Source: Chloroflexota bacterium
Lineage (GTDB): Bacteria > Chloroflexota > Dormibacteria > CF-121
Length of the DNA: 33,683 nt
Direction of reading: 5' to 3'
Assembly (NCBI GenBank): GCA_005889345.1
Contig: VBFR01000193.1
Span: 1 to 33,683 of the forward strand
Shown here: positions 28,672 through 30,965 of the stretch, in pieces
Position numbering within the stretch: the first letter of the stretch is position 1
Layout of the letters: every line of letters begins with the position of its first letter
Made by a program: the position numbers and the translations under genes
Notes under the pieces: model-generated
The model's database searches: none
What the model was told of the DNA's origin: nothing
The model's input: the letters and a program-made list of their open reading frames with translations, nothing else

Positions 28672-29199
28672 TTATTCCTCCGCCTCGGCGGGAGGCTGGC
28701 GCTCCACCTCCGGGCGTTCGGCCGGTGCCTGCCCGGAGCGGAAGACGCCCCACTCGTGCAACGAGCGGCGCAGCATCTCCGGGGTCGTCTTGTAGGCCGC
28801 CGCCAGTTGCTCCAGGTCGTCGGCGCGGAAAGTCACGACCGGCGTGTTGAAATCCTGTCGTTGCTGCTGCAGCCGTGCCACGTGGCGGGAAAGGATGGAC
28901 CCCTGACGCTCGGGGAGCCCCTGCAATTGGCCGAGATCGATGGCAAGCTTGGGCGGGAGCGCGGGCTCGCCCACGCCTTCGATCTCTTCCGGCAGCAGCT
29001 GGTTGACGGGGACGCTGTAGAGAGTCGCGATCTGGTGCAGGCGGGTGACCGAGATGTTGCGGTCGCCGCGCTCGTAGGCGGCGAGCAACGACCCCTTGAG
29101 CCGCTTATTCGAAAGGACTTCGACCTGCTGGAGCGTTAGACCACGCTGCTTTCGCAAACTGCGCAGTCTGGCTCCAACTTTTCGCGAGTACCCGTCCAA
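28672..29199 (-). CDS. BldD-like transcriptional regulator with intact c-di-GMP-binding signature
   Basis: From TTG 29199, preceded by AAGGGGG at 5 bases, the product has 175 residues. The XRE helix-turn-helix (about 4-70: VGARLRSLRKQRGLTLQQVE...LAAYERGDRNISVTRLHQIATLYSVPVNQLLP) closely follows Streptomyces BldD. The C-terminal domain reads PPKLAIDLGQL and LQQQRQDFNTPVVTFRADDLEQLA, with R114, D116, R125 and D128 forming the RxD-x8-RxxD signature that binds tetrameric c-di-GMP in BldD, at the same residue numbers. A Glu/Pro-rich tail follows residue 155. Starts further upstream (to 29313) would cross the promoter and are rejected. Probably a c-di-GMP-responsive repressor. Confidence 0.88.
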   Translation of the reverse strand: MDGYSRKVGARLRSLRKQRGLTLQQVEVLSNKRLKGSLLAAYERGDRNISVTRLHQIATLYSVPVNQLLPEEIEGVGEPALPPKLAIDLGQLQGLPERQGSILSRHVARLQQQRQDFNTPVVTFRADDLEQLAAAYKTTPEMLRRSLHEWGVFRSGQAPAERPEVERQPPAEAEE

Positions 29200-29210
29200 T
29201 GGATCCCCCT

Positions 29211-29223
29211 TGACTGTGTGTGA
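29211..29223. promoter_or_regulatory. BldD-box-like operator over the BldD-like gene's transcription start
   Basis: Minus-strand TCACACACAGTCA fits the BldD consensus TNAC-N5-GTNA exactly in both half-sites. It sits between the predicted -10 and the ribosome site, covering the expected start near 29218. This placement suggests autorepression, as known for BldD. A second near-match (TCAC-N5-GTGG, one mismatch) lies at 29310-29322. Confidence 0.6.
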
Positions 29224-29225
29224 CC

Positions 29226-29253
29226 AGTCTATCGCAGAACGCGATGCGGACAA
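29226..29253 (-). promoter_or_regulatory. Promoter of the BldD-like gene
   Basis: TTGTCC (29253-29248), a 16-base spacer and TAGACT (29231-29226) on the minus strand. Transcription would begin about 20 bases before the TTG start codon, within the BldD-box-like site. Confidence 0.6.
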
Positions 29254-29367
29254 AACTTTTGACGTGTTCTTTTCGGAGGGTGGTGGGGGATCGTTCTCGA
29301 GGAACGACGTCACCTTCCGTGGCCGTCATTATGGGACAAACTCCCAGGCCTGTCAAGTGGAGCTTAC

Positions 29368-30729
29368 TCAAGCGTCGAGCTCACTTACAGCGCTGGGGCG
29401 GCTGCCATCGGCGCGGCCGGCCTCGTAGGCCTGGCGAAAACGGAGCGCCGCCTGCGCGCTGTCGCCTTCGGCCTCGAGCACGCGCGCAAAATCGTAGGTG
29501 ACGCGCGCCCGCAGGTCGGGGTTCTCAATGGTCAAGGCGACCTCGAGCGCGCGCTCGAAGTGACGGTGCGCCGAGTCCCGGCGTCCGCGCTCGTGCGCAA
29601 CCCGCCCCGCCACGCGGTGAACCGCGACCGTTGCCAGGGGATCGCTCGAGCGGGTGGACAGGTCGATAGCCCCTTCGATGAGTTCGCTTGCGCGCTCCCC
29701 CTGCCCCGCTTCAAGAGCGGACTCAGCCATACCCGCGACCAGGTGCGGGACCAGCTCGCGGTCGCCGATCCGCTGGAGGTGCTCGGCGCCCTCGCTGAAG
29801 AGCCGCTCGGCTTCCGCCACGCGGCCCTGCTGCAGCAGCATGTCGCCCATGTTGAGGCGGAGCTGTCCGGCCATACGGACGTCTCGGAGCGTCTCGAAGA
29901 TACGCAGGCCCTTCTGCGCGTAGGACAGCGCCCGGGCGTACTGGCCGGTCTGCTGGAACGAGAGAGCGAGGCCCTCGTAGATGCCGGCGAGCGCCGGCAT
30001 GTCAAGAACCTGCGCCGCTGCCGCGATCGCGGATTCATAGGCGGCGATCGCTTCGATCGGCTGGCCCGCCACATAGTGGAGGTTGGCCCGGTGGCCGAGC
30101 ACGCGCGCCTTTAATACGGGATCGGCAACTCCGGCCGACTCGTAGCGCTCCAGGGCCTGGTCGAAACACTGGCCGGCGGCGTGCGCCCGGCGGAGCAAGT
30201 AGTGGACACTGCCGAGGCGGTCGTAGAGCTCGACCAAGAGCTGATGCCACTGCGCCCGTTGGGCTGCGAAGATCGCCTCCTCGAGGACCGGCCTGGCATC
30301 GTGGGGTCGCCCCTGCTTCATCAGCGCGACCGCCAGCGTGAGCTGCGCGCGTGTCCGCAACTCGATCGGAATCGTCCTCGCCAGCATCCGGGTAATCAGC
30401 GATTCGGCGCGAGCTCCCTCGCCGTGGAGCAGACTCATCTCGGCCTCTGCCAGGGCAAGCTCGAGCGCGGCAGCCGAGTCTCCTGGCTCTTCGAGGAAAT
30501 AGTCGATGGGCCGCTGCAGGCGGCGGGCGATGATGCGCAGGTTTTGTGTCGAGGGTTGGGCGCGGCCTAGCTCGACCTGGTTGAGGAAGGCTCGGCTGAA
30601 GTCGCTGCCGGCCACCGCGGCAAGGCTGAGCCCCAGCTCCTGCCGCGCCTGTCGAATCCGACGCCCGAGCGGACTCGGCGTCCCGGGGTCATCCGCTGCC
30701 GGACGCCCCGGGCGCCGCTTGGTAAGCAC
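29368..30729 (-). CDS. HTH (XRE) - TPR transcriptional regulator, RRNPP-like architecture
   Basis: A 453-residue protein: an XRE helix-turn-helix at about 20-80 (LGRRIRQARQELGLSLAAVAG...FLNQVELGRAQPSTQNLRIIARRL) followed by a long array of TPR-like helical repeats to the C-terminus (for example GIYEGLALSFQQTGQYARALSYAQKGLRIFE and AGQLRLNMGDMLLQQGRVAEAERLFSEG). This is the layout of peptide-sensing regulators such as Rgg, PlcR and NprR, though TPR-XRE proteins of other function exist. The GTG start lies 7 bases after TAGACT, so the mRNA is probably leaderless. A perfect inverted repeat overlaps the promoter. A short secreted-peptide gene lies immediately upstream on the same strand. Confidence 0.85.
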   Translation of the reverse strand: MLTKRRPGRPAADDPGTPSPLGRRIRQARQELGLSLAAVAGSDFSRAFLNQVELGRAQPSTQNLRIIARRLQRPIDYFLEEPGDSAAALELALAEAEMSLLHGEGARAESLITRMLARTIPIELRTRAQLTLAVALMKQGRPHDARPVLEEAIFAAQRAQWHQLLVELYDRLGSVHYLLRRAHAAGQCFDQALERYESAGVADPVLKARVLGHRANLHYVAGQPIEAIAAYESAIAAAAQVLDMPALAGIYEGLALSFQQTGQYARALSYAQKGLRIFETLRDVRMAGQLRLNMGDMLLQQGRVAEAERLFSEGAEHLQRIGDRELVPHLVAGMAESALEAGQGERASELIEGAIDLSTRSSDPLATVAVHRVAGRVAHERGRRDSAHRHFERALEVALTIENPDLRARVTYDFARVLEAEGDSAQAALRFRQAYEAGRADGSRPSAVSELDA

Positions 30730-30736
30730 AACCTAC

Positions 30737-30764
30737 AGTCTAGCAATCTAGACTTGACAGTGAA
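30737..30764 (-). promoter_or_regulatory. Promoter with inverted-repeat operator for the HTH-TPR gene
   Basis: On the minus strand TTCACT (30764-30759), a 16-base spacer and TAGACT (30742-30737), 7 bases from the GTG. The perfect inverted repeat AGTCTAG-N4-CTAGACT (30737-30754) covers the -10 and most of the spacer, where a bound dimer would block polymerase. Autoregulation by the HTH-TPR protein is the simplest reading. Confidence 0.7.
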
Positions 30765-30773
30765 TCGACCGGC

Positions 30774-30860
30774 TTACAGGGGGTTCGGCCAGACTTCGGC
30801 GCAGGAAAGCACGGCCGACGCGATAACTAACAGAATCCAGGGCGTGAGAAATCGCCGCAC
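30774..30860 (-). CDS. Short secreted/lipoprotein-type peptide gene upstream of the HTH-TPR regulator (28 aa)
   Basis: GTG at 30860 is preceded by AGGAGGT with 6-base spacing, among the best ribosome sites in the window. The peptide has an Arg-Arg N-terminus, a hydrophobic core (about residues 7-18, PWILLVIASAVL), a lipobox-like VLSC (17-20) and ends CAEVWPNPL (20-28). It resembles a signal peptide with nine residues left after cleavage. It ends 44 bases before the regulator's GTG, on the same strand. This size and context match pheromone precursors of Rgg/PlcR-type systems, but no family match exists; it could also be a tiny lipoprotein or a chance frame. Confidence 0.55.
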   Translation of the reverse strand: MRRFLTPWILLVIASAVLSCAEVWPNPL

Positions 30861-30950
30861 GGTCCCACCTCCTGAACAGGCGGCTCGCTCAAGATCGGCC
30901 TGTCCTGCTGCCAGCTTATGGACGGCCCTCAATCAAGGGGGTCACGCCTG

Positions 30951-30965
30951 TAACGGAATCCGTAA
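30951..30965. promoter_or_regulatory. Inverted repeat between peptide gene and tRNA-Arg
   Basis: TAACGGAATCCGTAA has a perfect ACGGA-A-TCCGT core and one outer mismatch. It lies about 90 bases upstream of the peptide gene and 56 bases upstream of the tRNA -10. No -35/-10 pair could be fitted around it, so an operator role is only possible. Confidence 0.3.

Follow-up and report, generated by a model that had tools for sequence, protein, structure and literature searches.

The window, i.e., the whole analysed stretch of 33,683 nucleotides, carries on its reverse strand a very short gene, which is directly followed by the gene for a regulator with an HTH domain of the XRE type and TPRs. The stop codon of the short gene and the GTG start of the regulator gene are 44 nt apart; a tRNA-Arg(CCG) gene is situated upstream of the pair on the opposite strand. 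The following features were distinguished:

30950..30965, minus strand: candidate palindromic operator TTACGGATTCCGTTAC, conserved, about 90 nt 5' of the propeptide start
30867..30873, minus strand: Shine-Dalgarno sequence AGGAGGT, 6 nt 5' of the propeptide GTG
30774..30860, minus strand: propeptide gene, 28 codons with GTG start, encoding VRRFLTPWILLVIASAVLSCAEVWPNPL and a stop; found in 16/16 orthologous loci
30798..30860, minus strand: predicted signal peptide, residues 1-21, from sequence and homologue comparison
30777..30797, minus strand: predicted mature peptide EVWPNPL, 7 residues
30737..30742, minus strand: candidate -10 element TAGACT, in conserved columns of the upstream alignment
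29368..30729, minus strand: regulator of 453 aa with HTH-XRE domain and about 9 TPRs, predicted to bind DNA and to act as receptor of a peptide inside the cell (Pfam, AlphaFold2, Foldseek)
28672..29313, minus strand: BldD-like regulator, start codon uncertain (Pfam BldD-like_C; NCBIfam BldD below its cut-off)

A sequence-only reading had described a GTG-initiated frame at 30860-30774 with a well-spaced AGGAGGT, ending 44 nt before an HTH-TPR gene, and this was confirmed. The frame is a real gene and not a chance ORF, since it is conserved in 16/16 loci, its dN/dS is 0.25, and it possesses a Shine-Dalgarno site. A lack of conservation or of synonymous bias, which the same reading had named as grounds against its proposal, was looked for, and the opposite was found. 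The short frame was present 5' of all 16 orthologues of the window regulator with upstream DNA (a 17th, which sits at a contig end, was excluded), and all 16 frames retained a signal-peptide-like form in the alignment. The GGAGGTG Shine-Dalgarno sequence was retained in the orthologues which were checked. For 13 aligned sequences pS was 0.367 and pN 0.115 over the whole frame, the tail CAEVWPNP had a dN/dS of 0.13, and both alternative reading frames showed pN > pS; Trp24, Pro25, Asn26 and Pro27 were invariant. Tail variants among the orthologues were EVWPNP(L/M/T/S), EAWPNPL, DVWPNPT and GVWPNPT, furthermore EVVWPNP, EGAWPNPL, EVLWP and GIWPAPF. In EVVWPNP the extra Val is offset by a missing last residue, and the length of 7 residues is retained.

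An ORF with signal peptide and Shine-Dalgarno site was detected in 61/128 real upstream regions of relatives, compared to 9/5120 dinucleotide shuffles; many of the loci are close relatives, and the counts of precursors are not independent events. Shuffles were used instead of random windows, whose false-positive rate (61/4000) was inflated because they were drawn from these same loci. Signal-peptide ORFs preceded 28/290 long ORFs of the examined loci, and 28/28 of these belonged to this regulator family. Nearly all loci come from metagenome assemblies; soil assemblies named 'Chloroflexi bacterium CF_*' contain near-identical ones. Candidatus Dormiibacterota is the name given in the records of genomes from the class of the window, and NCBI lists it as a phylum containing the class Dormibacteria; "phylum" denotes here the genome-search grouping that puts the class of the window together with other families.

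The predicted signal peptide of the window precursor consists of a basic n-region, a hydrophobic core and the cleavage site S-C-A; the corresponding sites of homologues lie between SFA and G, GTA and G, and VLA and D. Following the last A-x-A-like site, tails of 7 or 8 residues were present in 53/64 precursors (7 residues in 39). Processing would probably be carried out by signal peptidase I at this A-x-A site and yield a 7-mer such as EVWPNPL.

The regulator gave Pfam matches to HTH_3 (E 1.9e-8), TPR_12 and other TPR families, and its AlphaFold2 model (mean pLDDT 88.7) shows a confident HTH domain and a TPR superhelix of about 9 repeats. In the Foldseek ranking LGN came first, then RapI (TM 0.82 by target), PlcR-PapR7-DNA, NprR and Rap-pheromone complexes. 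By profile search PlcR was matched with E 6.7e-8 over HTH and TPRs, NprR and Rap were also matched, and generic TPRs scored higher; matches to NCBIfam NsdA and AfsR were far under their cut-offs. In sequence as in fold, the TPR part is most similar to general peptide-binding TPRs (those of LGN and kinesin light chain), and its resemblance to the RRNPP receptors (see below) is therefore unspecific. Conserved polar residues cluster in the A-helices of the TPRs (R209, H213, N216, E252, R285, N293, E336), where mean entropy is 0.69 vs 1.02 in the B-helices; this clustering is as expected of a ligand groove and suggests one. The GTG of the regulator starts 7 nt past TAGACT, and its mRNA may therefore be leaderless, with a putative promoter of its own.

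Sister regulators, which are 55% identical to that of the window, are likewise preceded by a putatively exported precursor of their own, in which a [DE]xWPN unit is present 2 or 3 times; one example contains ...AEIWPNGVEVVADIIWPNAAIIDDVIWPNGAVLDDGSGN. Single-tail precursors comprise 26-36 aa, multi-copy precursors about 60-76 aa. In one locus (L063, frame 1942-2841) a putatively exported protein, in which GWPNQL and GWPNPL are followed by a long Pro/Thr/Ala repeat, is encoded directly 5' of the sister regulator; it might be a pheromone precursor that spans the wall. A search of 18 family genomes showed that all [DE]xWPN ORFs with a signal peptide adjoin regulators, and no orphan WPN peptide with a signal peptide was found away from regulators in these genomes. 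In genome G013 the sister regulator is broken, and no WPN frame was left on its contig.

Palindromes are present in front of the peptide genes. The motif TNACGNANTCCGTTACNG occurred 17 times in the 18 family genomes (reversed control pattern, 0 matches), and its sites were restricted to the two kinds of peptide-regulator locus. The gene which they precede is either the peptide gene of the window type or, as in four genomes, one encoding a secreted protein whose core is that of a glycosyl hydrolase (PF11790, above its cut-off):

L062:1091-2530 (G002:C172): secreted glycosidase-like gene, headed by the window-type palindrome; counterparts in L067, L068 and L071

The glycosidase-like gene is the first of an operon and is followed by the WPN precursor and the sister regulator; its product is a candidate output of the signalling. 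The recognition regions of window and sister regulators are nearly alike (SRAFLNQVELG vs SRAFL[NS]QIELG), which fits one operator common to both, to which the two proteins would bind. In the IGPT clade another palindrome, TGAGTTGAC-N6/7-GTCAACTCA, is located just 5' of the peptide gene and nowhere else in 7 genomes. The window palindrome was also considered as a broad regulon motif and rejected, since with 2 mismatches its matches were near control level; this version was dropped and the stricter motif adopted.

The sequence-only reading had proposed a single pair of peptide gene and regulator. The pairing is real, and it is that of a large family with dozens of pairs. In another family of Dormibacteria (f3) about 40 regulators, ~29% identical to that of the window, are preceded by precursors of 31-36 aa with Shine-Dalgarno sites and the layout MRK/MRR, hydrophobic core, A-x-A and short tail; most f3 regulators outside one subclade have such a precursor. 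Their tails include DSTGPHI, SEIGPTP, DGIGPTPK, GSWPPGT, GPVPHCC and DGWPPHI. A third clade has a divergently oriented precursor of 26-30 aa in 11/11 loci, with tails such as DTLPGPR, DIMPGWK, EIWPGWK and similar. Two pairs of this clade are found in the window's own genome (G000:C43, L045; G000:C120, L046), where the precursors end in EIWPGWK and DSLPGGK after the Ala of the presumed cleavage site. This clade, the MNSVG paralogues, had been intended as a clean negative control, which was wrong, as all of its loci carry a divergent precursor. In other families of the phylum divergent precursors were found in 13/40 loci (shuffles 0.8%) and forward ones in 4/40 (shuffles 0.4%), 17/40 in all (shuffles about 1%), with tails such as DGAGGSFPH, EGGPVPYPK, VTNGNGWPH and GSGGPPFPR, and VDPGYPQ twice in one precursor. 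The divergent-strand precursors overturned a previous statement, based on the forward strand only, that precursors were absent outside the class. Longer divergent precursors, one with the tandem VDPGYPQ, belong to L303 and L304, and forward precursors of L301, L305 and L306 have tails with two Cys (e.g., ACDPETQGFC), possibly joined to a ring by a disulfide bond.

No precursor was found in the examined stretches near about 22 regulators of the f3 subclade, nor in those by short HTH-only relatives, and thus the receptor fold does not always bring a peptide with it. The precursor-less subclade includes L103, L106, L109, L113, L115-L119, L132, L133 and L135; a ligand gene for it may lie at another place or be missing. 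The short HTH relatives (L122-L131, L137-L141; compare L086-L096), with about 45% identity over the HTH, have a conserved neighbourhood including a single-strand-binding-like gene. With the pattern applied to viral contigs, no phage-borne relatives were detected.

The classes of tails, named WPN, IGPTP, STGPG, PPCC, [FWY]P[HRK] and others, follow the tree of the regulators. For 117 regulators 18 changes of class were required, compared to 63.6 in shuffles, and 0/200 shuffles were as low; IGPT (8/8), STGP (5/5) and WPN (7) each formed one clade. The tree resulted from a quick search with SH-aLRT support, has long branches and is unsure in its deep joins; the clade with divergent precursors was labelled 'none', as its peptides were found later. 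One genome (G039) contains four pairs with the different tails STGPHI, SIGPTGR, ETIGPTPK and DGWPPHI, and therefore it is the receptor that the tails follow, not the genome. Such a match of tails and tree would also result from linked inheritance alone.

RRNPP systems are defined by five features, i.e., a small propeptide, a Sec-type signal, a receptor of 250-500 aa, TPRs and adjacency of the genes (Bernard et al. 2023, PMC10075063); the propeptide comprises a basic n-region, a hydrophobic core and, at its C-terminus, a short tail (PMC10075063). Four of these features were found here; a Sec-type signal is predicted by a rule-based signal-peptide test. The window propeptide is 28 aa long (within the range of 10-100 aa) and has n-region, core and tail; the receptor, with 453 aa, is within the range, its relatives being mostly of 430-480 aa; it has the C-terminal TPR superhelix and the N-terminal XRE HTH, which is common to all RRNPP receptors but Rap; and the genes adjoin each other in the window, in 16/16 orthologues and in many paralogues. 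The RRNPP(A) systems PlcR/PapR, NprR/NprX, Rgg/SHP, PrgX/cCF10, Rap/Phr and AimR/AimP share this signature, with tails of 4-10 residues, and PlcR, NprR, Rgg and PrgX contain an XRE domain like that of the window regulator. Differences exist in the hosts (Bacillota and their phages for RRNPP; for the present systems Ca. Dormibacterota and further families of that phylum), in the position of the precursor gene, which here either precedes the receptor gene or diverges from it, in the tails, which are rich in Pro, Trp and Cys (WPNP, IGPTP, PPCC, FPR), and in the sequence matches, where generic TPRs outrank PlcR, NprR and Rap.

PlcR-PapR7 of the Bacillus cereus group is similar in having a receptor with HTH and TPRs and a 7-residue tail, and the profile match covers both domains; the fold also matches the PapR7-DNA complex, but the TM-score normalised to the query is low (0.38). 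PlcR contains about 290 aa, and the window receptor has more repeats. Tandem copies of pheromones in one propeptide were described for Phr3T and Phr105 (PMC11343458). The sister precursors resemble these in carrying several putative pheromone copies; they differ in their units, [DE]xWPN in two or three copies, and in ranging up to a Pro/Thr-repeat protein with an export signal, and the receptors here carry an HTH, which the Raps do not. The XRE or TPR architecture also recalls regulators of the NsdA/AfsR/BldD type from Actinomycetota, for which no adjoining exported peptide is known. The present systems would work like RRNPP; their receptors may share descent with those of RRNPP or may have originated in parallel from a common HTH-TPR stock.

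The most probable explanation, to which we assign a probability of roughly 0.8, would appear to be an autocrine or quorum-sensing system of the RRNPP kind in Ca. Dormibacterota and relatives, in which the short gene encodes the pheromone precursor and the TPR regulator is the intracellular receptor. From comparison of the sequences, the following course can be proposed. The 28-aa precursor would be exported by Sec, and signal peptidase I could cut after S-C-A, which would free about 7 residues, EVWPNPL in the window, GVWPNPT, EVVWPNP or GIWPAPF in related genomes, and, at the sister locus, several copies of [DE]xWPN per precursor. An Opp-type importer might bring the peptide back into the cytoplasm, where it would bind in the groove on the concave side of the TPR superhelix. 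The XRE domain would then act at the palindrome before the propeptide gene, so that the circuit would be autoregulatory, and in the sister locus also at that before the glycosidase-like gene. Opp-type proteins are common in bacteria; the genome of the window has 12 matches to SBP_bac_5 (oligopeptide-binding protein), which would permit re-import of a peptide. The proposal of peptide signalling outside Firmicutes, made in the sequence-only reading, has thus gained strong support of a circumstantial kind from the paired genes, the clade-tracking tails, the multi-copy precursors, the operators and the oligopeptide-binding proteins.

Other explanations have to be weighed against such a system. The sequence L-S-C at residues 18-20 suits a lipobox in most orthologues, and the precursor could be a small lipoprotein cut between LS and C, with its lipidated 9-residue end held in the membrane, or with a fragment of the signal peptide serving as pheromone, as with cCF10. 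The lipobox-like site VLSC, which had been pointed out previously, is not conserved, and the lipobox reading was rejected: Cys is replaced by Phe in L005 and by Thr in L016, where the tails are intact, and A-x-A-like sites are kept there (S-F-A and G-T-A). A conserved lipobox Cys, as in lipoprotein pheromones of the cCF10/cAD1 type, is thus lacking; the f3 precursors have no Cys at this position and retain the A-x-A site, and the strongest selection falls after the cut site, not in the signal peptide. A signal peptidase I site of the A-x-A type fits every member better, and a lipoprotein is, owing to the loss of the Cys, very unlikely. Arrest peptides typically have Pro-rich C-termini, and the short frame, with its Pro-rich end 44 nt 5' of the regulator, could likewise be thought of as a cis-acting leader peptide, where stalling of ribosomes at the Trp/Pro-rich end controls the regulator and no signal is exported. 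However, a candidate -10 element of the regulator lies between the genes, with a probably leaderless start; the precursors of the third clade and of other families are divergent, which excludes attenuation there; the tails are repeated inside longer exported precursors, and their classes differ strongly from clade to clade. Rfam matched only the tRNA, which also led to the rejection of a riboswitch or RNA leader. Divergent gene order, multi-copy precursors and the separate candidate promoter make attenuation very unlikely.

A bacteriocin or small-toxin locus could likewise consist of genes for small, hydrophobic, exported peptides beside that of an XRE regulator, with a common operator; in this case the short genes could encode small membrane or secreted peptides of an antimicrobial or toxin-like nature and the HTH-TPR protein could be an ordinary regulator which binds no peptide. 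Against this, tails of about 7 residues behind A-x-A sites are short for antimicrobials, their sequence tracks the clade of the TPR receptor, and multi-copy acidic WPN units are unlike pore formers. Among the neighbours looked at, toxin-like or transport genes did not recur; those conserved in the window group are the BldD-like regulator and exonuclease VII. An antimicrobial or toxin function is therefore improbable.

Peptide signals which are read by intracellular TPRs have been described for Bacillota and their phages, whereas the signals of other well-studied phyla are described as being small molecules in the main (PMC10075063), and the survey of Bernard et al. (2023) spanned Firmicutes and viruses only (PMC10075063). 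A text search of the literature yielded no report of such systems in Dormibacterota/Chloroflexota; most subscription papers and all preprints were out of its scope, and novelty is unproven. The recurring pairing of small peptide and regulator suggests that these bacteria may communicate by peptides in the manner of Bacillus and Streptococcus. We lean slightly towards a still wider view, namely that a phylum-wide peptide language could exist in Dormibacterota/Chloroflexota, in which each genome would contain many parallel, mutually insulated pairs of precursor and receptor, with operators specific to their loci and with precursors of the multi-copy kind. It would have evolved in parallel to the RRNPP systems of Bacillota or independently of them and would control secreted enzymes in uncultured soil bacteria. 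The loci point to a large and diverse set of TPR-read peptide systems in abundant, hardly cultured soil bacteria. With peptides which can be synthesised (e.g., EVWPNPL), the receptor and the candidate operator of 16 bases, testing in vitro should be feasible without growing the organism, and about 60 receptor-peptide pairs are on offer for studying the evolution of specificity.

With respect to the neighbourhood of the pair, the exonuclease VII gene is also located downstream of it in the window. The BldD-like gene adjoins the regulator in 9 syntenic loci and has its own promoter-like sequence, TTGACA-N17-CATAAT. BldD controls development in Streptomyces, and a developmental role is conceivable for this neighbour.
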